From: a virus
IMG/VR virus record: IMGVR_UViG_3300010883_000128
Location: 1-37,998 of that record
Length of the DNA stretch: 37,998 nt
Strand: one strand, 5' to 3'
The translations under genes were made by a program, and so were the position numbers. Under the pieces are notes generated by a model. That model saw nothing but the letters and a program-made list of their open reading frames with translations, did not search any database and was not told where the DNA came from. Of this stretch, positions 3,660-35,333 are shown one piece after another (the stretch's first letter is position 1; each line of letters begins with the position of its first letter).

Positions 3660-6600
3660 TTATGCTTTTATTTTAATATTTAACTTGAAGTCATAGTTAT
3701 ATCCAACCCTCTTTTCGAATATAAATCTGAAACCAATTTCACTTTCATTAAATGACTGTAGGTTGTGTGACGTTGATTTTTTATAACCCACTAACTGAGA
3801 TACGTCGCTACTAAAGCCAGTTTTAATATTCTTACTCTCTTTAAAATACACGTCAATGCTATCAATAATATATCTACTAGCTATGTTATGTTTTACATAC
3901 TCTGATATGTCATCATCAATCGTTGTTATATCACCATAGGAGTCAGCTGCTATAATATTTTCAGAAAACTTATATAATATGCCATCCGCAATCAAAGTTT
4001 CTCTTAGTGAATCTGTTATGTAAAAATCAGCAAAGATTCTATTTTCGTCTTCAAAGAAATGCACACTAGATATGTTTAAATTGTCTTCAAATGTTTCATT
4101 TAATTCATTAAGACTTGTATGTGCTTCTGCTACGCTAAACGTATCAATATCATATATATCGTTTACCTTCATGACAGTAGATGCCATAAATGCTTTAACC
4201 TCCTCTGGACTTTTAGTTCCTTTTGCATTTTCATTTTCAAGCCCAACTAATCCTCTTTTAAAGAAACCTTCAGTATATTTAGAGTCTAATATATTTAAGT
4301 CTGTTTTATCAATAGCAATCTCACCAATTAAAGGGTATAGCGGAAGCTTGTCACTAGACTCCGACAATTTTATTATATCTAAATCTGTATCCTCATTAAC
4401 CTTATGGTAGTAGAAGTTTTTAATTATTCCATAATCTTCTATGCAGTTTTTATAAGACTCAAATGCTATACCATGTCCATTAAATTTGCCATAAATAATA
4501 GATTCTCTCAATGTATTATTATTATATGCAGAGTACTTTAATTTATGTTGATTGTATATAGAGTCAAAAGATATTATATTTTTTACAGCAGGATTGTAAT
4601 CGCCGCTATGTCTATTTAATCTCGTGATATATTTAACAACCTTGTCTACTATGTTATAGCCAACAGATTCTGCAGTTACTGCAAAGGCACTTGGTTTTTC
4701 AGTATCTCCTATTGCTCTTTTTTCTGAAATCTTAATAACGCTATATGGTTTTATTAGTTTGATACGAGGCCCTTTATTTATTGAGGTTCCATCTGAATAC
4801 GCTGTATGATAAGTTATTCCAGCATTGTTTATAAATCTTTTAGAAGCTTGACCTAAACATATACTATCAAATAAGCCCTTAAACCCATTCTCTCCACCAT
4901 ACTTTAGTGTTAATGTAAAGTCGTCGTGAGCGTGTCCAGGCATTGCAGTGTAATAATTCGATGTTAAAGTAAAATTACCGGTAACCACGACAGGGTAACC
5001 TGCTACAAGAAGTGAAGAGTCATCAATAATATCAAGTATTTTTACTGCATACTGTGTGCTTGTGATCGGGTCAAGGAATTTAATAAATGAATATGAACCT
5101 GTACTATTCTTAACAATTTGAGAATTAAATCGAGCATCTCCTGCGTCTATTGATTGTTGCGATGCCTTTAAAATAAATGAATCTCCTGGTGAAGAAATTG
5201 GTGGCCATATAGATCCTCCAAAGTCAAAAGTCGCTTTTATTGGGGTATCGACTAGAGTTAATGGAAGTTGAGTATATCCACTTAGCTCAGTATTTCCATA
5301 ATTTCCCCAAGCAATAGGTATTGATGGGTTAAATGTAGCAGAAGGGCTTGTATTTAATGAAGGCGCTGTAGTAATTGCAGTTACCGTACATGTTGAATTA
5401 ACAATGCTGTTAGAATCTGAAAATGAAAGTACATCTCCTACCTTATAACTAATACCTTTAGTGTTAATTGTTACAGCAGAAACCTGTCCATTAGGAACTG
5501 ATAGTGTAGTATCAAGGGTCGCGCCGGAACCAATACCACTTGATGTAGTCGCTAAATTAGTTTCCCCTGCATTTGTAAATCCACTACCTGGTGTAGTTAC
5601 ACTAAGTGTTAAAATAGCACCAAGATCTTCTGCCGAATTATATTGCGTGATGTCTTTAACTGAGTACATATGACCCTTAGTTAATCCATGTACAGGAATA
5701 TCGTTTGTTATTGTTTTTATAGTTGTAAATATTACTAAAGTCTTCCACTTTTCGTTTTTTATAACCTCAATTAATGTATCATTTTCATCAGTAGAATGTT
5801 CGTACCTTAAAATATTCATAAACCTGTACCCGTCTAAACCTTCTGAAAACTTATAGTTAACTCCTTTAGAAAAAACGGTTCCTCTTCTTATTATATCGCT
5901 GTGGTTTACCTTTTTCATATCTTCCCATACTTCACTAGTTCCACTCTCGGTTGGAAGACCTGCAGGGTCTGACGTTATATAGTTAAAATATCCGTTAAAG
6001 TTTTCGAATAAAGAGAAGTAATCAATACTAGTGTTCTTTGCTTTTGTTGAATCAAACCCATCAAAGCCAGTTCCGTTTGTATAATCTACAGACGCATTAT
6101 CATATGAAAATAATAGCGAATCATCTATATTATATAAACCTTTTTCAGTTTTAACAGGTAATGTATACAATCCTCCAATATTTCTAATAGATGCTTGTAG
6201 CTTTGATATCTGCGCCATGGTATACTGCTCAAGATTCATAAATCTAAACTCAGATTGTCTTGCTGCAATACTTGGTGACATATTGTCTATTCCCATAGAC
6301 TCGTTAACGTTTAACACGTAATCATTCCCTCTAATATTACTTGAATCATTTCTAACAAAAGTGTTTATGTGCGGAACTATTCTTGAAAGTATTGCAGTTT
6401 CTTTTATTTTATTTTCTTTAAGTCTTTCGTAAATATTTGAAATTCTTCCTACACTATCTGGTCCAAGTATGTTATCTATTAAACCCTTAAACCTATTTGG
6501 GTTTTCTCTACGAACTATATCATCAGAATGATATTCATATTTTTTAAATCCTAAATCCAATTGTAAAGAACCTAACCCAGATATTTCATCATCATGAAAA

Positions 6601-8531
6601 TCAAACATAAGGTCTTTTAAATCATATGCTCTAAGCTTTCCAAATTCAGCATAGAATTTATTATACAATTTTACATCACCGTTGTTTGATAAAACTGCAG
6701 ATTTTTTTAATATAACTCTATAATGAGTGTCATTATAATCTTTTACAACATCAATAACTTCGACATAAGAATTTAAATCTTTTTCTTTAATGTAATCACC
6801 CACTGCAACATCTCCATACTCGCTTGATTCTATAAACATTCCTTGGTTTTCACCAGCTCCTCCTCTTAGCGTGTGAATGTCCCAATCAGTAAATGTTATA
6901 GTACCTGATGCAGAGTTAAGTCCCATATCATCCTTAGTAGACGTCACTATCTCAATAAATTCTACAGCATTAGTATCATGTAAACCAAACATCAATATAT
7001 TTGAGTCTTCTCCAACCACATAACTTTCAATAACAAGATGTTCACCGATTGGAGTAACTTTAACTCTACCCTCATCTATTGTATTCTTAATAACATCAGA
7101 TATTGCCATAACAATCTGACTTAAGGACCCTTGATTTGAAAAATAATTACCACTATATTGTCCAGCGTTTAAACTAGAATCTGCAATAATAGTATATGAA
7201 CCCATATTGTATGAGTCATCCTCCATTGAAAATCTATTACCTATAAAAAATCTATCAAGGTTGTTCGGTACATCTACTATTTTTAGCTTAATAAAACTCT
7301 TAAAGCTTCTTTTTTCCTGGTCTATTGTAAGAGTTCCTTGTTTTTCAGAATAACCCTTGAAGTCTTCTAAATCAGGTATCCTTAAATTTATTTTATTCTC
7401 ATTAGTAGCAGTAGCTTTATTTTGAATATGATATAACTTATATTTTTTGTCCTTTACATAATTTAATGTGGGTAAGGCTAAATCTAAACTATTAGGTACC
7501 ATAAATAACGAAGCAGCTCCAATACTTCCAAGAGCTGCACTAAGTGAATTAAATTGTGTAACCTCTTCGTAAACGCTAGTAGCACTGTTATATAATATGT
7601 TATCTGATGTAACTGAAGATAGTGTTAGATTTCCTTCTTTTATGCTATCAGCGTATAACCCAAAGTATCTATATGTTTTATATTTTTCACCAGTAGTATC
7701 GTCAAACATAAACTCAAGGTTTAATATATTTGAAAAAGCAATTCCATTTCTTTCAAAACCATCAGTAAGTAGCTGATTTTTATTTATTTCAAGATCGTCA
7801 GTTCTAATATAATCATCAGCTAGATACTCTTCTTTATTTACAAACCCACCATATTTAACATCAATACCTCTGTATGTACATGCCTCTTCGGTATCAAAAT
7901 TAAATGTTAACCCCGCAGAAGGAATTGTAGAGTCTTCGATATGCCCTCTTATGTATTCTCCTATTTTTGAGTTTATACTTAAATCAAAGTCAGCGACTAT
8001 GGTAGCATTTGCTAACATATCCATTATCTTTTCATTTTGACCTAAATAAGAATTTGCGTTTTGTATATTTGAAGGCTTAGCTGTTTCTACTCTGTATATT
8101 ACAAAATTCTTTGGAATATCTCTATTTAACCAAATTGGAGCAAGAAACTTATACTGCTCGTCATACAATTTAGTTGCATTAAACTCAGCACCATAATTAT
8201 ATTGGTTTTCAAATTGTTTAGAATATTCGTTATGTGTAGATATATCAGAGAATTTTCGCATTACCTCAAACCTTTCAGTCATTGGCACGCTACCATAAAA
8301 CCTAGAAACATCCATTGAATACCTACCGCTACCATCTATTTTAAATCTTTTAAACTGACTAGATGATAAATGTTTTGTAGCACTAAATGAACTCAGGAAT
8401 ATATTGTCATTTGAGTCAACTACAATCTTAACGTTTGAAGTAAGTTTAGGGTTTGTTCGAAGTAATCCAAACGATTTGTCCCCTTCGATATTGTATTTAA
8501 TATCAGTATTTAGTGTTGTCGCAGATGCCAT
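3660..8531 (-). CDS. Giant baseplate/tail structural protein (1623 aa)
   Basis: The largest gene of the window, 1623 residues, soluble, with no signal peptide or membrane segment. I do not recognise a named T4 homologue. It is acidic, rich in Asn, Asp, Ser and Tyr, and beta-rich, as expected of a peripheral baseplate or fibre-network protein. Residues about 960-1050 hold the units SVTTPGSGF and VTINTKGISYKVGD, the Gly-x-Gly-(Y/F) beta units frequent in fibre proteins of marine phages. It lies between a 1174-residue structural protein and the collagen-like fibres, so it may link wedge to fibres. A 45-base gap upstream carries a GATATATATAG box and a TACCTTTG element. Structural role likely from context; exact function unknown. 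Confidence 0.7.
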   Translation of the reverse strand: MASATTLNTDIKYNIEGDKSFGLLRTNPKLTSNVKIVVDSNDNIFLSSFSATKHLSSSQFKRFKIDGSGRYSMDVSRFYGSVPMTERFEVMRKFSDISTHNEYSKQFENQYNYGAEFNATKLYDEQYKFLAPIWLNRDIPKNFVIYRVETAKPSNIQNANSYLGQNEKIMDMLANATIVADFDLSINSKIGEYIRGHIEDSTIPSAGLTFNFDTEEACTYRGIDVKYGGFVNKEEYLADDYIRTDDLEINKNQLLTDGFERNGIAFSNILNLEFMFDDTTGEKYKTYRYFGLYADSIKEGNLTLSSVTSDNILYNSATSVYEEVTQFNSLSAALGSIGAASLFMVPNSLDLALPTLNYVKDKKYKLYHIQNKATATNENKINLRIPDLEDFKGYSEKQGTLTIDQEKRSFKSFIKLKIVDVPNNLDRFFIGNRFSMEDDSYNMGSYTIIADSSLNAGQYSGNYFSNQGSLSQIVMAISDVIKNTIDEGRVKVTPIGEHLVIESYVVGEDSNILMFGLHDTNAVEFIEIVTSTKDDMGLNSASGTITFTDWDIHTLRGGAGENQGMFIESSEYGDVAVGDYIKEKDLNSYVEVIDVVKDYNDTHYRVILKKSAVLSNNGDVKLYNKFYAEFGKLRAYDLKDLMFDFHDDEISGLGSLQLDLGFKKYEYHSDDIVRRENPNRFKGLIDNILGPDSVGRISNIYERLKENKIKETAILSRIVPHINTFVRNDSSNIRGNDYVLNVNESMGIDNMSPSIAARQSEFRFMNLEQYTMAQISKLQASIRNIGGLYTLPVKTEKGLYNIDDSLLFSYDNASVDYTNGTGFDGFDSTKAKNTSIDYFSLFENFNGYFNYITSDPAGLPTESGTSEVWEDMKKVNHSDIIRRGTVFSKGVNYKFSEGLDGYRFMNILRYEHSTDENDTLIEVIKNEKWKTLVIFTTIKTITNDIPVHGLTKGHMYSVKDITQYNSAEDLGAILTLSVTTPGSGFTNAGETNLATTSSGIGSGATLDTTLSVPNGQVSAVTINTKGISYKVGDVLSFSDSNSIVNSTCTVTAITTAPSLNTSPSATFNPSIPIAWGNYGNTELSGYTQLPLTLVDTPIKATFDFGGSIWPPISSPGDSFILKASQQSIDAGDARFNSQIVKNSTGSYSFIKFLDPITSTQYAVKILDIIDDSSLLVAGYPVVVTGNFTLTSNYYTAMPGHAHDDFTLTLKYGGENGFKGLFDSICLGQASKRFINNAGITYHTAYSDGTSINKGPRIKLIKPYSVIKISEKRAIGDTEKPSAFAVTAESVGYNIVDKVVKYITRLNRHSGDYNPAVKNIISFDSIYNQHKLKYSAYNNNTLRESIIYGKFNGHGIAFESYKNCIEDYGIIKNFYYHKVNEDTDLDIIKLSESSDKLPLYPLIGEIAIDKTDLNILDSKYTEGFFKRGLVGLENENAKGTKSPEEVKAFMASTVMKVNDIYDIDTFSVAEAHTSLNELNETFEDNLNISSVHFFEDENRIFADFYITDSLRETLIADGILYKFSENIIAADSYGDITTIDDDISEYVKHNIASRYIIDSIDVYFKESKNIKTGFSSDVSQLVGYKKSTSHNLQSFNESEIGFRFIFEKRVGYNYDFKLNIKIKA

Positions 8532-12107: not shown

Positions 12108-14099
12108 TTATCTAATAATGTCGTATTCGAATGTTTTAGTTACCGCATTGACGCAAATAATCTCAATATAGTCTTGAAGACTTAACCGATCAGACGAGTT
12201 TATTGTTATTTTTTGTACCCATGTATTAGTACTTGTTTTATCAGTAAATATATTTATAGTTTTACCAGCGGCTAGTTTCCAATTATTTCTAAATGTTATT
12301 CTTAAAACTTGACCATCAGACCAACTAATATTAGTATCGTCTAGGTATATATTAAGATTATCTCCAGTAGTACTTACATCAGAGTGAACTCTTAATATAT
12401 TGTTAAATGGTCTAACACTATGGTAAATACCCTTATTTGCTGATGTAGATAGAGTAAATGGAGCCGATGCTGTAATTTCTGCACCTGTTACTCCACTTGA
12501 AATATCAAACTGATAACCTCCAGTAAGCGTATACCCATCATTAATAGTTTTAAGTTTTATAAAATTACTATCAGCAGAACGAGTTACCTCAATACCGCTA
12601 TTTGGTATTGACTTTATAACATCTGTATTTACTTGAAGCGACGCCTCAATTTCTCCAGATATTAACTTATTTATTCTGCTATTAGCGCTTGTTATAAGAT
12701 CTAATAGTGATGTTGAGTCTGCATAATTTAAAGATGCATTCTCTACGTCAGTTGTAAGTTTTGTCATCTTAGTACTAAGGTCTAATAATTGAGGAGATGT
12801 TAATACCATGCTCTCTAAATCATCTAATCTTTGAGCAATTTTAAGATACCTATTATTTGCTGACTTTAATAAACTAGCAGCACTTTCAAGAGTTGAAGTC
12901 GTATCAAAGAATAAATCCATCGAAAACGTAGTATAGTCATTTATATTACTCTCAACTCCAACATTATCAAGAGATGAGTTAAACTTAACGTTTAGCTTTA
13001 AGGCATATGAATTACCATTAAGTCCTGTTATATCATTAGGTTTATTCTTAGTAAGTTCTGGTATATAATACCCTGTTCCAGCACTACCAGCATCTTTAAA
13101 GTTATCTAATAAGAGAACGCCGTATAGATTTGTAGCCTTGTGATTAGGGTTTGATTTTGAATATATGTCATAGTAGACTAAAACTGCGTTAAATCTAAAA
13201 TCTCCTCCTCTTTTTGAATAATCAAATAAATTATTTAATTTAGGGTCACTTACTATTTTAGCATACTCTGTAGACTCCCAATCAATACCACAATGTTGTG
13301 TTGTTGCTTCGTTAATATTATATATTGCAGGAGCAGGTGTAGCAAAGACTGCTCTTTCAGCAACCGCGTCCATATTCAAGTTAAGATCTGGATGTGTTTG
13401 ACCTCCTCTACCGTTTATATAGTTAGTAAGAGGAATATATGAAGTAGCAGTTGTATTAAAGTTTGATTCTTTAAAAAGAATAGTTGGTGTATGTCCAACT
13501 GAAGATGGCACGTTTATAAAAATCTCATTGTATGATTCTCCACCGTACTGTTTATCATTTGCAACATCTATCTCACCGATGTATTTTACAACTCTAGAAT
13601 ATTGAGTACCTGTTGTTGTTGAATTGTTTTCTTCAACTAAGCGAGTTATTGGGCTCGTAGCTGCCTCATCTGAATTAGCAGCTCTAGTTCTAAAAGCCTT
13701 AATTTCATTTAAGTATTTAAAAAATATCTTTTCAGCATCTGATTGATAAAGAGCAACGTCAAAGTCATCATCAGTTAGAATATAATTCTCTAGGTTTAAT
13801 GCGTAATTTTGAAACGTTTGAGCAAAATCGACGTTTACATCTCCACTCGCTACTCCAGAAAATAATGGTCCATTTCCAGCACTACCAGCAGACGTACATA
13901 ATTTTCCAAATTGAATGTAATTATCTGTAGTACCTGCTGCAGGAGCATCAACTACCGGCAAATCAATCAAAGCAAACTTCGAGTATTCGAAGTTTACGTC
14001 TGGATTATAGTATGCCCTAGTAAGGTCCTTTGCCGCACTTGCAAAAGCGTACATGGTACCTCCTTGGGCTTTCGGTATTCTTATTAGTGGTGTAGCCAT
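12108..14099 (-). CDS. Baseplate-associated structural protein with coiled coil (663 aa)
   Basis: A 663-residue virion-type protein beginning MATPLIRIPKAQGGTMYAFASA. The N-terminal 380 residues are mixed beta. A region predicted helical lies at about 407-487 (RYLKIAQRLDDLESM, LSTKMTKLTTDVENA, SANSRINKLIS) and has the heptad look of a trimeric coiled-coil stalk. The last 170 residues are beta-rich and Ser/Thr/Asn-rich and end FEYDIIR. This head-stalk-tip plan fits a baseplate-periphery protein in the position of T4 gp8-gp11, but I see no specific residue match to any of them. It sits between a small fibre-like gene and the 1174-residue gene in a tightly packed run. Confidence 0.65.
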   Translation of the reverse strand: MATPLIRIPKAQGGTMYAFASAAKDLTRAYYNPDVNFEYSKFALIDLPVVDAPAAGTTDNYIQFGKLCTSAGSAGNGPLFSGVASGDVNVDFAQTFQNYALNLENYILTDDDFDVALYQSDAEKIFFKYLNEIKAFRTRAANSDEAATSPITRLVEENNSTTTGTQYSRVVKYIGEIDVANDKQYGGESYNEIFINVPSSVGHTPTILFKESNFNTTATSYIPLTNYINGRGGQTHPDLNLNMDAVAERAVFATPAPAIYNINEATTQHCGIDWESTEYAKIVSDPKLNNLFDYSKRGGDFRFNAVLVYYDIYSKSNPNHKATNLYGVLLLDNFKDAGSAGTGYYIPELTKNKPNDITGLNGNSYALKLNVKFNSSLDNVGVESNINDYTTFSMDLFFDTTSTLESAASLLKSANNRYLKIAQRLDDLESMVLTSPQLLDLSTKMTKLTTDVENASLNYADSTSLLDLITSANSRINKLISGEIEASLQVNTDVIKSIPNSGIEVTRSADSNFIKLKTINDGYTLTGGYQFDISSGVTGAEITASAPFTLSTSANKGIYHSVRPFNNILRVHSDVSTTGDNLNIYLDDTNISWSDGQVLRITFRNNWKLAAGKTINIFTDKTSTNTWVQKITINSSDRLSLQDYIEIICVNAVTKTFEYDIIR

Positions 14100-14709: not shown

Positions 14710-17700
14710 TTATTTTATTGTTAATATGTTTTTTGTTGTTTCCATTTTATTTCCGTTTACATCGGTTAATTTTAAGCCAATTGTGTAATCTCCCTTTTCG
14801 TCAAATACATATGTCAACCACCTGTTAGTATAATATATATCCCCGATATTTTTGTTATTATTTTTGATAGACCATTCATGTGTTAATACTCCAGGTACTT
14901 TTGAATTATCAAAAGAAAACGTAAAATGATTTAACTTATTGTATATATCATGTTGATTTATCAACTTAGTATCGACGTATGTTGGATTAAAGCTTTCATG
15001 TAGATTATGTTGAAGTATTTGTACTTTACGATAACCTCCAGTAGTAGCTACCGTATTTTCATGATAAAATTGCTGTATATTTTTAGAATTAAATTCTGCT
15101 TTTGCTACTGCCAATATATAACCGGCAGTATCTGCTGTTCCATCTCCATTCGTGTCTTGTGCAACTAAATTATATGTAAATTGAGATAGGATTGGATATG
15201 TAGTAGTGTTAAGTCCATTTAGTTCAGTTTCTGCTGCAGTCCATTCAGCAATATCAGTAGCCGAGCTTGGATAATTTGTTAAACTATATGATTCAATAGT
15301 TACTCCATTAGTAGGGTGTACCGATTTTGCACGTATATCTGAGTAGTTAGGAGTACCTGGGTTAAATCCATATGCAAATTCAATCTTAAACGCAGCTAAC
15401 ATATCACTACCAACTCTTGCCATATCCCAAGACATTGTATTACCGTCGTTCCAATCGTGTTTTTTCATATTATTATACGAATAAGGTCCAGCAGTTTCTG
15501 AAAAGCCACTAACTGAAGTAGGATCATTATATCTTACAACAGTTGAGTGTCTCCAATTATCGTCGCTATTTGCATAGTTATTCCTATCTAACGTTAAATA
15601 ATATGAACCTATGAAATCTTCAATACTTGAAGTATTTTCAGCAGCGGTATTCCAATCCGAACCTGCTGTTATCCAAGAATAATTATAATATTTATTCCAA
15701 TCTAACACCGGAGATTTTGATTGAGTTATTGCATATGTTTCAACCTCTTTAGATTTTACTTCTATAATCTCTTTATCAAACTTAACGCTACGAATATTAT
15801 ATAGGTCATAGAATGAAAGCTCAACGCTATACTTACCAATGTATGGTAGTGTTATATAAAATTCGTAATAGTTTTCTATGCTACCTCTAAATGTTCTATC
15901 ATATCCTTCAGGTCCAATTAATCTCCATTCTACCTCATATATTCTTTTGTGCCACCACTTGTCCCAAGTAAAATCATTAGTAAACGTAATCCATGATGCG
16001 GAATTCCATATCAATGGCAGCATTTGACCAGCTGCAGTCTTCTTAAGAACAAGTTGACCAATTCCAGCATTTCCAGGAGATATCGCACTTACTCCAGCAA
16101 CATCTTGTAGTCCATATGTATAATCCATACCATCGTTTGAATCATTATACGAACAATCACAGTCATCCCATGTGTCTTTAAGAGAATTAGATTTTAATAT
16201 AATAGGACATCCTACTGGTATATTTAGTTCTGAAAATGTAGAAAGATCAGACTCTCTATATCCATTATAAAAAGATGTAATTTCACCTGCTACATTATCT
16301 CCAAAGTATTTTTTCATACCAGTATTATAGCAGTCTAGCATTTCAACTGAATTTAAAGCTCTTCCAATAATTCCAACCTCTCCTATATTTCCATGCCAGT
16401 AGCTTTCAAGTCCTGCCAGCACGTATGCTGGATTAAACGAAGGTTCTGCTCCTACGAATAAAGAATTACTACTACCGTATGATATTTTATTACCAGATAA
16501 CAGCCAAGTATTAGAACCTACAGGTGGCGAAAGAGGGTGCGTTGTTGCGTTATAGTATGGTTCTATAGATATATCTTTATTAGTAGAATCTGAAAAGGAT
16601 GAATGGGGCTCAGCTAATACACCATCTATATACATTTTAACATATCTTCCGTCAAAGGTAAATGAAATAAGATGCCATCCGTTATTAGTATCATTCGTGT
16701 TTCCACTAGAGAACAGATTAAATTGAGAAACCATATGTGAAATACCAGCAGGGGCGCTTGTTTGTATCGAATATCCGTTTATATAAATTCCTAAGCATAT
16801 TCTCTTATTGTAGTAAAACAACTCCCATCCGCCTTGTTCTATACATGACATTATTGTAAACTTGTCGGTAGCAGCTCCACTATAGTTCCACTCATGGAAG
16901 TTTACCCATGCACTTGCTGTTATTTTATCCTTTCTACGGAAATCGGGATGTTGCGCTGTCGCAACACTTCCATTAGTAGGTGAAAACGCAACAGAACCTC
17001 CTGACATAGAAGCATATTCTGTTGTTTGTGGCAGCGAATAATCATCTAAATTAACACCAACATGTTCTAGGTCATTATCACCATCTCTTGAGTCTATTGT
17101 CTTAGGATAATTAGTAGAATCTCCAAGTTTCCAATAAGCACCACTATCTCTTTGTACAAGTTCTTCAAAGTCTTGTCCTTTTCCTGTAAGCCATGGACTT
17201 ACCTTTCTTAAGTCTTCTAAATAAAGACCTCTTTTTGGAAAAACTTCATATCCTACATCTACTCCCTCACTTACTGTTGAAATATTTTGTTGATTGTTCC
17301 ATGTATTTATATTAAATTGAGAAAAGTAATCTGCCTCCCCGACAATATCTACAATTTTAGCTTGCATAGGGATATAGCTCTTTTGCAACCTATTTTTAAG
17401 ACCATATAATTTAATTAAAACCTCATCGGGTGAAAACTCGAGTGCCTCTTTAACCTTAGGAATGTCCCATTCATCGTACTCTCCAGTTGCATTATTAAGC
17501 CTATATACTAATGAAAATCTTGAAGTCTTTTTTAAATTAGAATTTGGAAGTTCGCTTGTTGAATTCTTAGCAGCTAGGAATCCTTTAACATCTTGATTTG
17601 GAACAGCAACTGCCTTTAATTTACCAAAGTTTTCAGCAGTTTCATTTATATTTAACCAATATTCCTTAAGTGTAATATTCTCGTAACCAAAATATTTTAT

Positions 17701-18450
17701 AGCATTTAAAAGAGCTTTATACGTACCAATAAATGGTTTAATATTTGCAGCTTCTAAAAGAAGTTCTCTCCTTTTTCTATTTATAAGTTTCCAATCTGGA
17801 CTTGACTCTCTAATATCAGCATCTTCAAATACAAAGTGATCAGTCGGCGAAAGCGACATCCCAATATTTGAAAGTAATGTCTCTAATCTATCGTCTTCTC
17901 CTACAGTTTCACCATATACTCTAATCGTAGCAATATTGTTAGCTATTGAACCGTCAGCATTTATCTCATTTATTAACAGAGTTCTTTTATGATATGTCTC
18001 GGTGTCAGATTTTAAAGCAACATTTATTTGTATTGGTTCGATATCTATAGTGCTTGAAACTACGCGAAAACCATCTGAGTTTGTTGTGCTAGAAGTCGAT
18101 GAAGGTAATCTTAATTTAAGTTGAGACTTATCTGTTTTAATATACAATTCTCCAGATTCAATAGATGTGCTGTATAGTATTATATTTCCACTAGAATCAT
18201 ATTCATTTTCAAAGCTAGCATGAATATTATTATTTGTAGAAGTAGCGTCAGCAAGGGGTTTAATATATCTAGTTTCATTTAAGTCGCCAATAGCCTCTTG
18301 TAATATATAAATTGTTAATGTTTCATAAAGACCTGTAGAAACTTCAGGCAAATACACAATACCTTGCCATGTATCGGTATTGGAATCATATTTTAGATTC
18401 AGCTCATCTGAATTACTATCAAAGAATTTAAGATTTGAATACTTAGCCAT
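14710..18450 (-). CDS. gp7-like baseplate wedge protein with lectin-like and PKD-like domains
   Basis: A 1246-residue protein directly after gp25- and gp6-like genes, in the position and size class of T4 gp7 (1032 residues). The N-terminal 340 residues include IGTYKALLNAIKYFGYENI (about 241-259), a pattern seen in wedge/tail proteins of this group. Residues about 480-714 form a concanavalin-like (LamG-type) jelly roll: ITASAWVNF, WHLISFTFDGRYVKMYIDG. Near 1100 there is DTNGDGTAD, a calcium-loop-like motif. The last 75 residues (HEWSIKNN, GDYTIGLKLTDVNG) match a PKD-type beta sandwich. The start overlaps the previous stop as TAATG, implying coupled translation. The wedge role is inferred from synteny. 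The carbohydrate-binding folds are visible in the sequence and suggest surface glycan contact or virion decoration. Confidence 0.7.
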   Translation of the reverse strand: MAKYSNLKFFDSNSDELNLKYDSNTDTWQGIVYLPEVSTGLYETLTIYILQEAIGDLNETRYIKPLADATSTNNNIHASFENEYDSSGNIILYSTSIESGELYIKTDKSQLKLRLPSSTSSTTNSDGFRVVSSTIDIEPIQINVALKSDTETYHKRTLLINEINADGSIANNIATIRVYGETVGEDDRLETLLSNIGMSLSPTDHFVFEDADIRESSPDWKLINRKRRELLLEAANIKPFIGTYKALLNAIKYFGYENITLKEYWLNINETAENFGKLKAVAVPNQDVKGFLAAKNSTSELPNSNLKKTSRFSLVYRLNNATGEYDEWDIPKVKEALEFSPDEVLIKLYGLKNRLQKSYIPMQAKIVDIVGEADYFSQFNINTWNNQQNISTVSEGVDVGYEVFPKRGLYLEDLRKVSPWLTGKGQDFEELVQRDSGAYWKLGDSTNYPKTIDSRDGDNDLEHVGVNLDDYSLPQTTEYASMSGGSVAFSPTNGSVATAQHPDFRRKDKITASAWVNFHEWNYSGAATDKFTIMSCIEQGGWELFYYNKRICLGIYINGYSIQTSAPAGISHMVSQFNLFSSGNTNDTNNGWHLISFTFDGRYVKMYIDGVLAEPHSSFSDSTNKDISIEPYYNATTHPLSPPVGSNTWLLSGNKISYGSSNSLFVGAEPSFNPAYVLAGLESYWHGNIGEVGIIGRALNSVEMLDCYNTGMKKYFGDNVAGEITSFYNGYRESDLSTFSELNIPVGCPIILKSNSLKDTWDDCDCSYNDSNDGMDYTYGLQDVAGVSAISPGNAGIGQLVLKKTAAGQMLPLIWNSASWITFTNDFTWDKWWHKRIYEVEWRLIGPEGYDRTFRGSIENYYEFYITLPYIGKYSVELSFYDLYNIRSVKFDKEIIEVKSKEVETYAITQSKSPVLDWNKYYNYSWITAGSDWNTAAENTSSIEDFIGSYYLTLDRNNYANSDDNWRHSTVVRYNDPTSVSGFSETAGPYSYNNMKKHDWNDGNTMSWDMARVGSDMLAAFKIEFAYGFNPGTPNYSDIRAKSVHPTNGVTIESYSLTNYPSSATDIAEWTAAETELNGLNTTTYPILSQFTYNLVAQDTNGDGTADTAGYILAVAKAEFNSKNIQQFYHENTVATTGGYRKVQILQHNLHESFNPTYVDTKLINQHDIYNKLNHFTFSFDNSKVPGVLTHEWSIKNNNKNIGDIYYTNRWLTYVFDEKGDYTIGLKLTDVNGNKMETTKNILTIK

Positions 18451-18722
18451 TATCTAATGTTTTTATAGTCTTTTTTAACGGTGAAAGATTTGAACACCTT
18501 TATTGAATTTACTCCGTCGACCCAGTTGGCAACGATAAGCTGAATGTAAGATACGAAATCAAACATCTGATTATTTCTAAAAATATGAGATGATAGAGCG
18601 TTCTTAAGCATGTTTGTTCTGTAATTATTAGGAAGGTTCTTTCTATCATCAGCAATAGTATCAGTTACTTGATATACATTTGAACGCCTACTCTTAAATA
18701 AATTATCGGTTAACTTAGCCAT
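18450..18722 (-). CDS. Small unrecognised baseplate-operon protein (90 aa)
   Basis: A 90-residue basic protein (MAKLTDNLFKSRRSN, ending KDYKNIR) without a recognisable domain. It is fixed in the wedge operon by one-base TAATG overlaps on both sides, with the gp6-like gene before it and the gp7-like gene after it. Translation of the three is therefore probably coupled and their amounts matched. It contains FDFVSYIQLIVANWVDG, a helical segment that could pack against a wedge subunit. The place and size suggest a minor wedge component; no homologue recognised. Confidence 0.65.
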   Translation of the reverse strand: MAKLTDNLFKSRRSNVYQVTDTIADDRKNLPNNYRTNMLKNALSSHIFRNNQMFDFVSYIQLIVANWVDGVNSIKVFKSFTVKKDYKNIR

Positions 18723-20542
18723 TATATGGTTTTTCTATTTTTTGCCTGTATCTTTCTAAATGTTGTATTTGGAACGGCAGGCTCATCAAAGTAAACTGAA
18801 AGAGCTCCTAACTCTCCAATTTTAGCAGAATCTGGAACTTCAATTCCGTCTCTATCTGCCCAGCCGCCTCTAAACAAGGCAACTTCGTCCTTTTCTAATA
18901 GAATATCTCCAAATGAATCTAAATTTATTATGTTTTCTGGAAGTGCAGCACCTGGTTCGAAAGTAACGTTTCTTGAAGTTACTGTTCTTTTAAAGAATAC
19001 AAATTTCTGCTGGCCATTCCCAATATCTTCAAGAACCGGAGTTGATGGAGTAACCGTCACAGTCTCAGACTTATAATATCCGTTTTTTCTAGCATCTTCT
19101 TCAGCCTTACTAACAAACTTAACATTTACAGAATCTATACCATCTACGCCTTCTAAAATAGCAACAATATCAGAACTTGGTAATCTATCTCTTCTTGTTA
19201 TGTTAATTAAGTAATCAGAAATAGAAGATTTAATATTATTAAAAATAGTATGCTTGTCATTTCCTTCAAAATACCTTACCTTAATATCCATTCTAAAATA
19301 TTGAGCTGATGGTTTAACAATCTTAACCTCAGAAGTAAGCATTTGTCTTCCTGATTTTTCAAGCAATCCCAGTATAGAATTGTTTTCTTCTTCAGTAAAG
19401 AAGAATTCGTCTACTTCGAAACTAAAATAATCCTTATTTCCACTTATCTTACGCTTAACATCAGGCAACATAAATAAGTATATTACATTGTCATCATCTA
19501 AATAACCATCATCTGTCGTATTGTATGCGTCTAGGTAAGAGAACATACCATACTTGGCTAAGAACGACTCGTAATTATCAGGAGTTGCTAGCACAAAAGA
19601 ATGCGACTGCAGTGGAGCTATAAGTTTTGTAAGCTCTATACTTTCTGGATTTGAACCCATCATAGGAGCAACAGTTACTTCAGAATCTATAAGTGAATTT
19701 AGGTCATATGTGTTTCCAACACTATCAAATCCTTCGCTTTCAAACTTAAATACTAAGTTTTTATGACTAATTAAATTACCATTAGCTCCTTCAGTTTTAA
19801 CGTAAGTTATCTCTATAGAAGTTCCAGTTGCTGGAACTTTACCAAAACTTCCATTTCCAAAATAAATATCCAAACCACCAGTTATACCAGTCTTAACTAT
19901 AAAACCATTAGTGTTTACCTTCATATCATATATAGAATCAAACTTTTCCCAAGGCATTGCATTTACAAAAACCTTTACAAAAGAATGATCTGTATTTCCT
20001 TTTGTTATAATATTAAATGATTGAAACTTTTCACCAGTACCGGTTACTGTCTGAGATTCTATAGTTCCTTGTATTATAGGTATTCGTAATGCATTACTAT
20101 CAGACTTATCTATTCTAAATTTATCTGTGTTAGTTAGCATAGTGTATTTTAAACCATTAACCTCCATCTTAAGCATAGAGTTTGGTAATATATTTATAGC
20201 GTCACCTGCAATTTCATCAAGCGACGTTGGATTTAATCTAATAGAAATTTCTCCAGTAGCAGAAGAGCCTCTAAATGGATCATGTCCTGCCAACCTAGAT
20301 AAACCATAAACAGATTCCTTATGTTGAGCAGTTAGTATGTTTTGTTCTATCATTGCATTTTCAATATAGTAAAAAACAAACGTTGTAAGTTCATTTAATA
20401 CATTTAATATCTGTGCAAATGGAGACGCTGAAGTAAATAGAGTACCTGCCCTAGCATATACCCTACTGATAAATGACTGAGTGTCATCTATCATTTCAAC
20501 TGTTTTGATTCTAGACTTTTCTAAAAATTTGAATTCTGCCAT
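18722..20542 (-). CDS. 6: Baseplate wedge protein, gp6-like (BaseplateJ family)
   Basis: A 606-residue homologue of T4 gp6 (660 residues), the subunit that forms the continuous ring of the baseplate inner wedge. The N-terminal part (FISRVYARAGTLF, then FVFYYIENAMIEQNILTA) is the usual helical entry. Residues about 235-258 (ATGTSIEITYVKTEGANGNL) show the V-x-Y-x-x-T-x-G-x-x-G-N signature of the BaseplateJ/gp6/gpJ fold. A later segment, IVAILEGVDGIDSVNVKFVS (about 455-475), is the conserved C-terminal domain in which adjacent gp6 copies meet. It directly follows the gp25-like gene, the order typical of contractile injection systems. Only the ring role is inferred from the family; the motif match is direct. 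Confidence 0.88.
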   Translation of the reverse strand: MAEFKFLEKSRIKTVEMIDDTQSFISRVYARAGTLFTSASPFAQILNVLNELTTFVFYYIENAMIEQNILTAQHKESVYGLSRLAGHDPFRGSSATGEISIRLNPTSLDEIAGDAINILPNSMLKMEVNGLKYTMLTNTDKFRIDKSDSNALRIPIIQGTIESQTVTGTGEKFQSFNIITKGNTDHSFVKVFVNAMPWEKFDSIYDMKVNTNGFIVKTGITGGLDIYFGNGSFGKVPATGTSIEITYVKTEGANGNLISHKNLVFKFESEGFDSVGNTYDLNSLIDSEVTVAPMMGSNPESIELTKLIAPLQSHSFVLATPDNYESFLAKYGMFSYLDAYNTTDDGYLDDDNVIYLFMLPDVKRKISGNKDYFSFEVDEFFFTEEENNSILGLLEKSGRQMLTSEVKIVKPSAQYFRMDIKVRYFEGNDKHTIFNNIKSSISDYLINITRRDRLPSSDIVAILEGVDGIDSVNVKFVSKAEEDARKNGYYKSETVTVTPSTPVLEDIGNGQQKFVFFKRTVTSRNVTFEPGAALPENIINLDSFGDILLEKDEVALFRGGWADRDGIEVPDSAKIGELGALSVYFDEPAVPNTTFRKIQAKNRKTI

Positions 20543-20558: not shown

Positions 20559-20912
20559 TTATATGAAGAGGCCTACTTGATATTTAGCATCAATAACGAT
20601 ACTAACAAATACTAAGTGCCTGTCAACTTCATCAGTAAAATCAACAGTTACATCTACATTATATTTTTTTGATAGCGGTACGTATTTATCAATAGCATCA
20701 CTAATTATTCCAACCAACATATTATCATTATATCTAAACGAATACACATAGTCATCTAAATTTAAACCAAAGTCAGGATCGCCTAACACAGAGCCCTTTG
20801 AAGTAAATAATAAAGTCTCTAACTGAATCATTATCTCAGAAATATCTCCATCAATCTCCATTTGACTTTTGTCAAATCTAGGGTCTCCTTTTTTCTTTAT
20901 GTAAAATTCCAT
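20559..20912 (-). CDS. 25: Baseplate wedge protein, gp25-like (GPW/gp25 family)
   Basis: A 117-residue protein of the GPW/gp25 family, the small wedge protein that attaches to gp6 and contacts the sheath. Key features: ISEIMIQLETLLFTSKGSVLGDPDFGLNLDDYVY (residues 24-57), where the L-x-T-x-x-G-S-x-x-x-x-P-D-F-G core is intact, followed by the helical stretch MLVGIISDAIDKYVPL. The length is close to T4 gp25 (132 residues). The gene is followed after 16 bases by the gp6-like gene. The upstream gap holds GATATATAG five bases before the ATG. Confidence 0.88.
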   Translation of the reverse strand: MEFYIKKKGDPRFDKSQMEIDGDISEIMIQLETLLFTSKGSVLGDPDFGLNLDDYVYSFRYNDNMLVGIISDAIDKYVPLSKKYNVDVTVDFTDEVDRHLVFVSIVIDAKYQVGLFI

Positions 20913-20929
20913 ATAACTATATATCCTAT

Positions 20930-21736
20930 TTATGAGTGCATCATCCAGTCTGTTCCTTCGTCAGCAGCAATTTCTTCTATTATAGTTTCAAGTTCACTTT
21001 CACCGAGACTTTGTATCGCATCTGCATTTACTGCAATATTACCAGGTAATGAGAATTCAAAAATGTTTAATTTGTTACCTAAAGAAATCTTAACCTTTGC
21101 GGCAACATATCTAAAGAATATCTCATCTTCATATAGCGCGCAATCAGGAATAGTTTCATAAATTTCCAAAATAACATCTGTTGTTGGAGTTTCACCAGTA
21201 AACCTTAAGGCTCTATTAAGTCTATTATAGTCGTAACTATATGGGTTATTTAATATTTGTCTCGCAAGATCAAAGAACTTCTGGTTAATAACATAATACT
21301 CTAAAGCCTCTGCAGATCCTGCAGTTCCAGAATTACCATACATATTTGCAGCAAACATTCTTTCTATTGAAAAATCTCCTTCAGTAAAATTTATATCACC
21401 ACTTAAACTACTTGAATTTGTTTTATGAACTCCAAATATAGAATAAACAGTACTTGGCATATTTATAGTTCTTGAAGCCTTAAAATATGCTGATGTAAAC
21501 GTAGCCTTAGGAATAACAAAGAAATTCTCTTGAACAGAATACTCATATTTTTTATAGAACCATTTTCTAGCTCTTTTAATTATGTTAGTTACTTCTGCTG
21601 CCGGAAGATGCATAGGAATCATACAAGATCCTGTTATTTCGTCAGCTAACTCGTTAACAAAGTTAGTTAAACATGTGCTGCCAAAATCATGTTCAGTAGC
21701 CATGCTAGTTCCGTTTCCTAAATGAATATTACTCAT
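20930..21736 (-). CDS. Virion structural protein, possibly neck or baseplate (268 aa)
   Basis: A 268-residue soluble protein. Visible features are a helical N-terminal part (TNIIKRARKWFYKKYEYSVQ, about 50-70), a central beta part, and an acidic C-terminal part (FFRYVAAKVKISLGNKL, then SLGESELETIIEEIAADEG). The C-terminal pattern, helix followed by a short glycine loop and an acidic helix, is common in head-completion, neck and connector proteins of tailed phages, but I cannot name a family. It stands between the amidoligase gene and the gp25-like gene, 14 and 17 bases from them. A structural role is likely; neck versus baseplate is not decided. Confidence 0.6.
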   Translation of the reverse strand: MSNIHLGNGTSMATEHDFGSTCLTNFVNELADEITGSCMIPMHLPAAEVTNIIKRARKWFYKKYEYSVQENFFVIPKATFTSAYFKASRTINMPSTVYSIFGVHKTNSSSLSGDINFTEGDFSIERMFAANMYGNSGTAGSAEALEYYVINQKFFDLARQILNNPYSYDYNRLNRALRFTGETPTTDVILEIYETIPDCALYEDEIFFRYVAAKVKISLGNKLNIFEFSLPGNIAVNADAIQSLGESELETIIEEIAADEGTDWMMHS

Positions 21737-21750
21737 ATCTTTTTATTATT

Positions 21751-23040
21751 TTATACCTCAACGTACCTGAGTTTCTCAGTTCCGTCAAATCTTGCTCTTT
21801 TTTTATCATACGTACCTTCTCTGAAAATACCTTTTATCATTTTACCCTTAAATATTCCTTTACCATATACATAACATTCTTCTGCTGTCGAATTAACACT
21901 GACATAGCAGCTTTTAAGTTTTGTCGAAGATATTTTGGCGCTATTGTAGAAGTTGCAACTAATAATGTCTGAACCATCTATAATACCTCCAAATATATCA
22001 CAGTTTTCTAACTCTCCGCGAATATCACAATTAATAAAATCATAACCATCAAGACTAACACAATATGAAAGTTCTCCATCCTTGACTTGAACCCTTCCAG
22101 TATCTGTGTCGTAATTTATATGTCCTTTTTTAAGGGCACCGTGTGTAAATAACCTCAGCACTCTTTTTTGTATATTTGCCCAGTGTAGTCCTATTATTTG
22201 TTTATCCTTATGTAGGTCAACTGTAAAATCAACATTTTTCCATTTCTTATCTATAACACTACTATCAATCCTAGCATCTATTATTCTTCTATTATCCGAT
22301 AATATCCTTTTAAGTTCTATAGAGTTCGATCCACTGAACCATTTAGACTCAGTACTTTTCCATAGTTGAACTAAAAATAAATCTAATAGATGTAATACTT
22401 TAGCAGGTTTCTTTTCCCAATCCTTTCCACCAATATATCTAAACTCAAGATAATTGCTTATTCTTTTCTCAAAGTTTACACCATAGTATTTTGAATTAGG
22501 GAATGTAAAATTATTTTCGTCAATTAAACTACCATCAACATTAAATGTTTCTGAATTTGGAAGTACAAACTTTATAGATTTAGCGTATGCTGAATTTTCT
22601 CTTTTTGGAAACAAACTAAACACATAATCTTCGTCAAAATCTAATATAAACTTAAGAACATTCATGTTAATTCTTCTAGAATCATCTATTTTATCAGAGT
22701 CAAATGAAAGATTTAGGTGTATCGATGTCATATCGTTAGTAAACCCATTTTTTTGAATCCATTCTGAAACCTTTATAATCATAAGCCTAGCAGACTTATA
22801 ATCTTGGGCTCCAGTAACTAGCTCCATAAGTTTTTCACCTCCACTAAAATCAGGTTCTATCTTAAACTCTTTATCAGTAGGGGCAAAATCACTATGTGCC
22901 TTATCCTCAACTCTAATCTTTTTAGAAAGTAAAGTTGCTAGGTCTCTTGCAGTAGAGCTAATGTCTTTGTTCGAATAAAATTCAAACTCTACACCAACTC
23001 TACATTTGGATAATATTTCAGCTTCGTTAAATCGATTCAT
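21751..23040 (-). CDS. Putative amidoligase (GCS-like) with pentapeptide-like C-terminal domain
   Basis: A 429-residue protein whose first 300 residues match the amidoligase family related to glutamate-cysteine ligase, enzymes that join a carboxylate to an amine using ATP. Visible motifs: GVEFEF (16-21) with the paired acidic residues E18 and E20, ELVTG (73-77), SIHLNL (106-111) with H108, and YLEFRYIGGKDW (197-208) with E199 and R201. Residues about 333-405 are short repeats (YDFINCDIRGELENCDIFGG, then SDIISCNF) that look like a pentapeptide or right-handed beta-helix domain. It sits inside the baseplate operon, after a terminator and a GATATATAAA box, so it may be transcribed on its own. 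The substrate is unknown; peptide, cell-wall or virion-protein modification are possible. Family call from motifs only. Confidence 0.7.
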   Translation of the reverse strand: MNRFNEAEILSKCRVGVEFEFYSNKDISSTARDLATLLSKKIRVEDKAHSDFAPTDKEFKIEPDFSGGEKLMELVTGAQDYKSARLMIIKVSEWIQKNGFTNDMTSIHLNLSFDSDKIDDSRRINMNVLKFILDFDEDYVFSLFPKRENSAYAKSIKFVLPNSETFNVDGSLIDENNFTFPNSKYYGVNFEKRISNYLEFRYIGGKDWEKKPAKVLHLLDLFLVQLWKSTESKWFSGSNSIELKRILSDNRRIIDARIDSSVIDKKWKNVDFTVDLHKDKQIIGLHWANIQKRVLRLFTHGALKKGHINYDTDTGRVQVKDGELSYCVSLDGYDFINCDIRGELENCDIFGGIIDGSDIISCNFYNSAKISSTKLKSCYVSVNSTAEECYVYGKGIFKGKMIKGIFREGTYDKKRARFDGTEKLRYVEV

Positions 23041-23062
23041 TTGAGTTTATATAACTTGAGTT

Positions 23063-23076
23063 GGTTTATATATCTT
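23063..23076 (-). promoter_or_regulatory. Candidate promoter box before the amidoligase gene
   Basis: The minus strand reads AAGATATATAAACC, ending 22 bases before the ATG at 23040 and just after the terminator of the S1-like gene. Its place between a terminator and a gene makes it one of the better promoter candidates among the recurring GATATATA boxes. A second TATATAAAC lies closer to the start. Confidence 0.4.
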
Positions 23077-23087
23077 AGTTTTTGTAG

Positions 23088-23118
23088 ATAAAAAAATCCC
23101 GCTCTTTAGAACGGGATT
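23088..23118 (-). terminator. Rho-independent terminator after the S1-like gene
   Basis: On the minus strand AATCCCGTTC and GAGCGGGATT form a ten-pair stem (one G-U) around the loop TAAA, followed at once by a run of six to seven T. It lies 26 bases beyond the S1-like stop codon. The GC-rich stem stands out in this AT-rich DNA. On the plus strand no T run follows, so it acts in the direction of the genes. Confidence 0.88.
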
Positions 23119-23143: not shown

Positions 23144-24343
23144 CTATAGTTCCATGAAAACCTTGCGAGTCTCCTCGTCTATTCTAGTGACAGTGACTGT
23201 AATATCAGATCCTTTCTTTAAACTATTCAAATCAAATCCTTCAGGGAATTCAGAGACGTGCAGTAATCCTACAAGACCTTCTCCAATATCAACGAAAGCT
23301 CCATAATCTTTTAAAGATCTAATCTTTCCAATTATCTCAACTGGAGTTTTAAACCTCTCTGATGCGTTATACCAAGGATCGCTGACAGGCTCAACTGGTT
23401 TTTGAGACAATGTAATCTTATTTTCAGATATAATTTTCTTGATAAAGAATTCAATCTCTTCTCCAGGCTTAACATCTCTATTAATATGCCTCTTCATTGT
23501 TTCCTCGTCAAGATCATTTACATGTATCATTCCAGTTAAACATTCATTAAACTCACAGAATATTCCAAACTTAGCAGAACCTGTAACGCTACCTCTAACA
23601 ACAACGCCATTTTCATATTCTTCTATTTCAGCAATTTTAGTAGGGATCATAGCTTTTAAATATTCTCTATGAGAAACTACAATAGTACCTCTGTCTGATG
23701 AGTAGTTCATAGGAACAACATACATTTCAGTACCTAATATTGACTCAAAGTCATGTAGTTTATTAATCCCAGCTAGAGAACCTGGCATGAAACATTCTAC
23801 TCCTTGAATTTCAACAATATAACCTCCACCTGGAATTAAACTCTTTACAGTAGAATTATATGCAGTTTTAGAATTTTCTACACTATCAAGTATTTCATCG
23901 AATATAGCTCGCTTAAAACCAGCTTCAATAGAACCTAATATGTAATTTCCTTGTTTAGAACCATTAGACTCTATAATTTGAACATTAATCTTCTCACCAA
24001 TCTTAAGTAAGTCCTTGTACTCTTTTGCTTCTTTTGCCATATCGATATATACGTCGTCTCTAGCTCCAATGTTTATAGTACACCACGCAACGTTAATCGA
24101 ACTAACAGTTCCTTCATATGACTGGTCAAGCTTAACGTCAACTACCCTATTATTATCTTCAAAATCTCTAGAGTATGCCTTAAGAGCCTCTTCTGCATAG
24201 GGCTCAGAGCAATATAACTTTATACCATTTTGGGTTTTTAATTTTGTGTTACGACGTCTTGATGACGGACATGTTGCTTCTAAAGCTGCCCAGTCGAACT
24301 CTGGGTTAGGGTTGTTGTGATCTACAACGGTTTCCTTTGACAT
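23144..24343 (-). CDS. Ribosomal protein S1-like RNA-binding protein, four S1 domains
   Basis: A 399-residue protein made of four S1 (OB-fold) RNA-binding domains: about 74-140 (YEGTVSSINVAWCTINIG), 162-226 (VKSLIPGGGYIVEIQGVECFMPGS), 248-314 (VVRGSVTGSAKFGIFCEF, GMIHVNDL) and 334-399 (IIGKIRSLKDYGAFVDIG, VGLLHVSEF). The last two match the S1 consensus best. The N-terminal 70 residues are not recognised. Bacterial S1 usually has four to six such domains and brings mRNA to the 30S subunit. A phage copy could favour phage mRNAs lacking a Shine-Dalgarno, or act in RNA protection or replication. It lies between spike-region and wedge genes, with a strong terminator after it and a promoter-like box before it, so it looks independently expressed. 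Domain call firm; role inferred. Confidence 0.9.
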   Translation of the reverse strand: MSKETVVDHNNPNPEFDWAALEATCPSSRRRNTKLKTQNGIKLYCSEPYAEEALKAYSRDFEDNNRVVDVKLDQSYEGTVSSINVAWCTINIGARDDVYIDMAKEAKEYKDLLKIGEKINVQIIESNGSKQGNYILGSIEAGFKRAIFDEILDSVENSKTAYNSTVKSLIPGGGYIVEIQGVECFMPGSLAGINKLHDFESILGTEMYVVPMNYSSDRGTIVVSHREYLKAMIPTKIAEIEEYENGVVVRGSVTGSAKFGIFCEFNECLTGMIHVNDLDEETMKRHINRDVKPGEEIEFFIKKIISENKITLSQKPVEPVSDPWYNASERFKTPVEIIGKIRSLKDYGAFVDIGEGLVGLLHVSEFPEGFDLNSLKKGSDITVTVTRIDEETRKVFMEL

Positions 24344-34624: not shown

Positions 34625-34822
34625 CTACCCAATATCATAAAACTGATTTTCGGAATTTCTCCACTTATCCACAAATGCATCTATAAAGTCCATTGATTCA
34701 GGAGAACCAATATAAGCGTCTACTGTCTTTACATATCCACGATAGAAGCTATCACTTCCATTTTCAGATAAGATAGTTACTAATTCTTTTTCGGTTGGTA
34801 GGTATTTTTTATTAAAACTCAT
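34625..34822 (-). CDS. Unrecognised small acidic protein (65 aa)
   Basis: A 65-residue protein (MSFNKKYLPTEKELVTILSE) overlapping the last 11 bases of the dCMP deaminase gene, which argues for coupled translation and supports it as real. It has a helical look and an acidic C-terminal half (ESMDFIDAFVDKWRNSENQF). No family or motif recognised, and no membrane segment. Confidence 0.6.
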   Translation of the reverse strand: MSFNKKYLPTEKELVTILSENGSDSFYRGYVKTVDAYIGSPESMDFIDAFVDKWRNSENQFYDIG

Positions 34823-35333
34823 TCCAGACTATTACTTTATTTACGTTAATATTTGCTTTCTTTAATAATTCTATTCCTTTAGTATCTCTATATTCCTCGC
34901 TATAGAATACATTTTTTATTCCTGACTGTATAATCAATTTAGAACACTGGTAACATGGACTCATCGTTACGTATAAATCTGCACCATCTGAACTCATAGT
35001 ACTTTTTGCTAATTTAGCAAGTGCGTTAGACTCCGCATGTAGAACTTCAGGTTTTGTAGTAGTAGTTTCTTTAGTACAACAACCATTTTCACAATCAAAT
35101 CCGTGTTCTTCTATTAAATCCATTGCAATATCTGGATTTTCATAATACACGGTTTCTGTTTTAACCTCTTCACATGCGTTATTAAACCCATGAGGTGTTC
35201 CATTGTATCCGAATGAAACAACTTGCTCATCCTTTACAATAACGCTGCCAACTTTCTTACGTTCAGCATAACTAAGCTTTGCAAATTGATAAGCAACTTG
35301 CATGTATATTTTCTCTATTGGTATTCTTGGCAT
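34812..35333 (-). CDS. Deoxycytidylate (dCMP) deaminase
   Basis: A 173-residue zinc-dependent dCMP deaminase, which converts dCMP to dUMP, the precursor of dTMP; phages carry it to balance nucleotides for AT-rich DNA. The catalytic motif HAE (H99, A100, E101) and the second zinc motif PCYQC (126-130, with C127 and C130) are intact. GSVIVKDEQVVSFGYNGTPHGF (29-50) is the conserved substrate-binding start. Between the two halves there is an insert with C54, C81, C85 and C86, as expected for the extra zinc site of T4-type enzymes. The length is close to T4 Cd (193 residues). A strong intrinsic terminator lies directly upstream, so it may have its own promoter or depend on read-through. Well supported. 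Confidence 0.93.
   Translation of the reverse strand: MPRIPIEKIYMQVAYQFAKLSYAERKKVGSVIVKDEQVVSFGYNGTPHGFNNACEEVKTETVYYENPDIAMDLIEEHGFDCENGCCTKETTTTKPEVLHAESNALAKLAKSTMSSDGADLYVTMSPCYQCSKLIIQSGIKNVFYSEEYRDTKGIELLKKANINVNKVIVWNEF

Follow-up and report, generated by a model that had tools for sequence, protein, structure and literature searches.

The window, that is the whole stretch of DNA analyzed here, is a virus record of 37,998 nt. On its minus strand lies an open reading frame (21751-23040) that starts with ATG and encodes 429 amino acids. Working from the letters alone, an earlier note had read this frame as a putative amidoligase with a pentapeptide-like tail; the frame is real at exactly these coordinates, and the motifs on which that reading relied are all present, namely GVEFEF (residues 16-21), ELVTG (73-77), SIHLNL (106-111) and YLEFRYIGG (197-205). 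Residues are counted from Met1 as 1; the window row of the alignments and the model lack Met1 and their numbers are one lower. The features of the encoded protein are as follows.

21751-23040, minus strand: amidoligase–beta-helix fusion protein (open reading frame, 429 aa, ATG start; PF12224; AlphaFold2 model)
22141-23040, minus strand: GCS/GS-like amidoligase domain, residues 1-300 (ligase-only model; PDB matches to glutamine synthetase and GshA)
22981-22995, minus strand: GxExE motif (G16, E18, E20), predicted metal/ATP ligands, invariant in 52 sequences
22837-22857, minus strand: EPDxSGG motif (D64, S66), both residues unchanged throughout the family and in 9 other phage amidoligases
22810-22824, minus strand: ELVTG motif (E73), from the family alignment and nine other phage amidoligases
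22711-22725, minus strand: SIHLN motif (H108, N110), HxN here and HxH in cassette-type phage amidoligases
22471-22491, minus strand: KYYGVNF motif (Y185, N189), from the family alignment and nine other phage amidoligases
22438-22449, minus strand: LEFR motif (E199, R201), invariant, with the counterpart YIEVR in GshA
21805-22053, minus strand: pentapeptide-type beta-helix, about residues 330-412 (model strands, Pentapeptide_4, PDB profile hits)

The assignment to an enzyme class draws on profiles, conserved residues and predicted structure. Against PF12224, the family suggested by the earlier note, the window protein scores 24.5 bits, above the curated cut-off of 22 and over residues 13-67 only; 34 of the 52 family members match the same profile (E≤0.1), with a best E of 3.6e-10. 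No match to the window protein was returned by an NCBIfam search, or by a PDB search with the single sequence. A PF12224 profile search of genomes overlooked the window and most huge phages, and genome-wide absences of this profile are not used because the first pass of that search was too insensitive.

Conservation in the ligase domain is concentrated at the expected positions. The residues that are invariant in the alignment of 52 ligase sequences include G16, E18, E20, D64, S66, E73 and H108, followed by N110, Y152, Y185, N189, E199 and R201. All five residues proposed earlier as an active site (E18, E20, E73, H108 and R201) are thus unchanged in 52 relatives, down to 21-23% identity, and no acidic metal-binding residue is missing from the alignment. 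The set formed by E-E, D-S, E, H, Y-N and E-R is common almost in its entirety to nine other phage amidoligases, the departures being E20D in LAh9 and Y185F in Edmundo. A difference concerns H108-x-N110, which is found in the window family and in Atu_ph07, whereas the nine other phage amidoligases have HxH. E. coli GshA has HxN, in SGVHYNFSL (H150-Y-N), together with GLERE at 25-29 and YIEVR with its glutamate at 328 (328-330). Kinship with GCS rests on motifs and fold, because hhalign of the family profile with the single GshA sequence gave no significant alignment (E 0.3).

AlphaFold2 modelling with 52 relatives gave a pLDDT of 91.1 and a pTM of 0.81 for the full-length protein, and 90.8 and 0.88, respectively, for the ligase domain taken separately. 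With Foldseek the model matched glutamine synthetases (E 1.6e-5, probability 1.00), with GshA lower in the list. Superposition on solved GS/GCS structures yields TM values of 0.27-0.44 with large rmsd, so that kinship of the model to these structures, as predicted, is remote; this remoteness weakens the amidoligase explanation. The best match among viral models is an uncharacterized phage protein (TM 0.85 over the full length), and the other significant matches that carry a name are mostly called amidoligase, including that of Atu_ph07, with E values down to 3.7e-12. The predicted fold is therefore GS/GCS-like, at a distance, and not an unrelated one. With PF12224 above its cut-off, the full set of conserved motifs, this fold and a beta-helical C-terminus, the amidoligase identity given by the earlier note holds, and the protein very probably belongs to the GCS/glutamine-synthetase-like amidoligases. 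Its predicted activity is ATP-dependent amide bond formation. Purifying selection on the gene is strong, with a dN/dS of 0.08-0.12 that is among the lowest of the block and as low as that of the structural neighbours.

The C-terminal domain had been described from the sequence as a pentapeptide or beta-helix repeat. In the model, strands of three residues recur approximately every five residues from about 330 to 412; Pentapeptide_4 is matched by 15 of the 52 relatives (best 2.6e-6), and the family profile matches pentapeptide proteins in the PDB (best E 0.0016). Of 52 family rows, 51 have a positive lag-5 hydropathy correlation. In the window sequence by itself the correlation is weak and not significant (0.09, p = 0.18), so that the repeat is supported by the family profiles, the PDB hits and the model strands and not by the window sequence alone. 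Over about 83 residues, the net charge of the helix is -3 in the window and 0 to -7 in relatives. No description of an amidoligase-pentapeptide fusion was found in the literature searched; in a jumbo-phage overview, R2K ATP-grasp ligases are treated and an amidoligase is named once, in the reference list.

The gene order around the amidoligase in the window comprises an OB-fold spike, a protein of unknown function, an S1-domain protein, the amidoligase, a head-tail adaptor, gp25 and gp6. The neighbouring features are listed below.

20930-21736, minus strand: head-tail adaptor (Ad2-like), next gene in the amidoligase unit (phrog_211, E 3.9e-12)
20559-20912, minus strand: gp25-like baseplate wedge protein (PF04965, E 8e-4, below cut-off; phrog_43, E 0.006)
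18722-20542, minus strand: gp6-like baseplate wedge protein (phrog_219, E 3e-35)
23144-24343, minus strand: S1-domain protein, upstream neighbour beyond the terminator (PF00575, E 4e-20; synteny)
23095-23118, minus strand: intrinsic-terminator-like hairpin after the S1 gene (10-bp stem and T run)
23054-23073, minus strand: 20-nt element ATATATAAACCAACTCAAGT (also given as ATATATAAAYYAACTTAAGT) upstream of the start codon (upstream-region conservation)

The earlier note had placed the gene between spike and wedge genes; the nearest gene is instead a neck/adaptor homologue, 14 nt downstream. The note had also considered the enzyme to be out of place there. It belongs to the resident genes of the window's clade: the gene before it encodes the S1 protein in all 75 contigs showing both flanks and the gene after it is the adaptor in 80 of 80 fetched contigs, with a gap of 9-18 nt in 76 of the 80. 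These contigs are redundant or overlapping and were all retrieved with the amidoligase gene as query, so that the counts indicate a stable arrangement and not universal presence. A search with gp6 as query returned only close relatives. The S1-domain RNA-binding protein that always lies upstream in this clade is itself unusual within a structural block.

Some other genes of the window deserve mention. A 1246-aa tail protein (14710-18450, minus strand) matches Tail_P2_I weakly, contains a laminin-G/concanavalin-like domain and is possibly a receptor-binding protein. A 663-aa protein (12108-14099, minus strand) has a weak LicD match below the cut-off (E 0.004), and a dCMP deaminase gene (34812-35333, minus strand; phrog_174, E 2.7e-51) is located near the tail gene block.

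The 20-nt element ATATATAAACCAACTCAAGT lies between the S1 and amidoligase genes. Among 63 distinct regions upstream of the amidoligase, 37 contain it with no more than two mismatches, and every one of these belongs to the window's clade. Of 12 contigs measuring 81-177 kb, 10 contain the element, once each except for one contig with two copies, and the reversed control had no match in these 12 contigs. The probable function of the element is that of a promoter or regulatory site for the unit formed by amidoligase, adaptor, gp25 and gp6. A hairpin similar to the one in the window is visible upstream of several relatives; the terminator scan as a whole found 2 against 1.8 expected by chance. As judged from sequence, the amidoligase heads the head-tail-adaptor/gp25/gp6 transcription unit in the window's clade, behind a predicted terminator and the 20-nt element. 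The diverged clade has a TTAATATATA-like sequence instead, a few bases before the start codon.

Other arrangements are found outside the window's clade. In the diverged clade (29-33% identity), the amidoligase usually points away from a pair of tail/baseplate genes and from a conserved gene for a 129-aa protein. The 129-aa protein is highly conserved in this clade and stands head to head with the amidoligase (for example L044, 11511-11900, minus strand, and relatives). On the other side, a small conserved gene comes directly after the amidoligase, often with an overlap of at most 4 nt, and next to it stands a DHH-phosphoesterase-like gene of 500-750 aa; this arrangement is located at 13368-15820 in L044 and at 11395-13663 in L137. 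One contig was binned with a Bacteroidetes MAG; there, the amidoligase starts 7 nt after a head-closure Hc2-like gene. The Atu_ph07 copy, two genes away from the portal, borders a lysin-like gene and is included in CDS 170-215, a cluster reported to be rich in virion proteins (PMC6102473). The amidoligase stays among virion genes in four different arrangements. Co-expression with virion genes is not universal, because the amidoligase of Atu_ph07 and that of the diverged clade are transcribed in the direction opposite to that of the adjacent virion genes.

The family is widely distributed. A profile scan of IMG/VR identified at least 567 relatives among 598 candidate stretches, and the gene occurs in eight phage records: two are entries for Atu_ph07, and the other six, from uncultured phages, measure 462, 634, 636, 642 and 735 kb (735 kb twice). 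The four sizes from 634 to 735 kb are those of the largest complete phage genomes of Al-Shayeb et al. 2020 (PMC7162821), each of which carries the gene; in that paper, Bacteroidetes hosts were predicted for its five genomes over 634 kb, all of the Mahaphage clade (PMC7162821). The contig binned with a Bacteroidetes MAG contains one relative. In another relative (L040, 6001-7293), the amidoligase is interrupted near its middle by an in-frame stop that leaves two open reading frames (6001-6654 and 6655-7293); this could reflect an assembly error or a real variant. Both the spread of the gene and its attachment to virion genes exceed what the earlier note could see.

What the enzyme does can be approached from this setting. 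The explanation we tentatively prefer is that of an ATP-dependent amide ligase, made late and docked through its beta-helix, whose target would most likely be a virion-assembly protein. Activation of a carboxylate with ATP and metal is known chemistry of the GS/GCS superfamily, from which the catalytic steps are taken. ATP and a divalent metal would be held by E18, E20, E73, H108, E199 and R201, and a carboxylate would be phosphorylated; the activated carboxylate would then be transferred to an amine, giving an amide or an isopeptide. The pentapeptide-type beta-helix would dock the enzyme on a partner. The enzyme would be produced late, its gene being the one that opens the neck/wedge transcription unit in huge myophages, and the target would be a protein of head-tail joining or of tail/baseplate assembly, modified during assembly. 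For the window protein we infer catalysis, the use of metal and ATP, late timing and the docking role of the helix; the substrate is the weakest step of the explanation. The assembly reading is supported by the adaptor gene, so close downstream in most contigs of the window's clade, and by the copies in the diverged clade, the MAG contig and Atu_ph07, which also lie near virion genes. It is weakened by Atu_ph07, where the beta-helix is lacking, and by the opposite orientation of the gene with respect to adjacent virion genes there and in the diverged clade. That huge phages would modify or cross-link their own neck or tail proteins during assembly, by means of a beta-helix-steered ATP-dependent amidoligase, is rather unlikely. 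To our knowledge, such an enzymatic step in tail assembly has not been described for T4-type phages.

Modification of the host envelope, with new amide links added to surface peptides or to the side chains of peptidoglycan so as to block superinfection or ease lysis, is possible, if on the doubtful side. It has been proposed for the phage amidoligase cassettes of phiEco32 and PSA-HP1 (PMC5498523; PMC11318856), in which glutamine amidotransferase (GATase), ATP-grasp, ligase and gamma-glutamyl cyclotransferase (GGCT) genes would together modify peptidoglycan (PMC5498523), and it would fit the lysin-like gene that borders the amidoligase of Atu_ph07 as well as the GGCT gene found in 3 of 8 huge-phage records. 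Those GGCT copies, however, are unlinked to the amidoligase, and AIG2_2 was not found in the huge-phage records scanned. Of 9 annotated phages examined, 7 have a partner gene of this type (GATase, ATP-grasp, a second ligase or GGCT) near the amidoligase, whereas no GATase, ATP-grasp, second COOH-NH2 ligase or GGCT partner was found among the 30 window genes scanned, and a scan of eight huge-phage records gave no GATase_6 (control positive, 14 of 14). Synthesis of a small gamma-glutamyl-type amide or peptide in the manner of GCS, for example a redox buffer or a counter-defence metabolite in the infected cell, would agree with the HxN motif that the family has in common with GshA and the nine other phage amidoligases lack, and with the GCS structures among the fold matches; such a product is unlikely in view of the docking beta-helix and the linkage to virion genes, unexpected for a metabolic enzyme, and of the failure of the family profile to align with GshA.

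The location in a virion block and the beta-helix, a module typical of scaffolding or binding parts, would also suit an amidoligase fold that has lost catalysis and now serves as a neck/baseplate structural or chaperone protein. This is improbable, given that every catalytic position is invariant while the remaining protein drifts to about 23% identity. DNA mimicry by the repeat domain, raised in the earlier note, finds no support. If the helix mimicked DNA towards gyrase or a host protein that binds DNA, and the ligase served as effector, this would account for the weak resemblance of the profile to MfpA, Qnr and McbG-like proteins; that similarity is generic to the repeat, and a mimic of the Qnr/MfpA type, for which a strongly acidic helix surface is expected, was rejected on the low net charge given above, which makes this alternative very improbable.

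If virion proteins are the target, as in the assembly explanation preferred here, enzymatic covalent modification would be added to myophage assembly; if the envelope is the target, the idea of superinfection exclusion would reach the largest phages without the usual cassette. The conserved residues provide a short list for testing, whichever the target. The gene is present in the four largest complete genomes named above and across hundreds of environmental contigs; it is linked to neck/baseplate genes and strongly constrained by purifying selection.

Comparison with known systems places the family among phage amidoligases. The phage members of PF12224 (phiEco32 gp84, LAh_9 and the Porphyromonas prophage amidoligase) have the same ligase domain as the window family and the motifs GxExE, DxS, E, H, Y..N and ExR in common with it; the Porphyromonas protein aligns with the family profile over 183 columns (E 5.8e-8, single comparison). 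The window family differs from them by HxN in place of HxH and by its C-terminal beta-helix, and from most of them by its virion gene unit and the lack of the usual partner genes. Two annotated phages, a Lachnospiraceae phage and the Porphyromonas prophage, are likewise exceptions without cassette partners, and in the latter the amidoligase lies between adaptor and neck genes. With no linked partner genes, the window gene was not assigned to the phiEco32/PSA-HP1-type peptidoglycan-modification cassettes. Atu_ph07 gp196 (A0A2L0UZM1, named Amidoligase enzyme in UniProt) resembles the window family by its HxN, its jumbo phage origin and its position near the portal; it is 21-23% identical to the window protein and differs from it by a long insertion and the absence of a beta-helix. 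E. coli GshA (1v4g, 2d33) is similar in predicted fold and in the GxExE, HxN and ExR motifs, but has no significant sequence alignment with the window protein and no beta-helix. Pentapeptide-repeat proteins (MfpA, Qnr, McbG-like) have the repeat signature in common with the C-terminal domain, which in the window is fused to an enzyme and weakly charged, the similarity being generic only. The family is a variant of the phage amidoligase kind.
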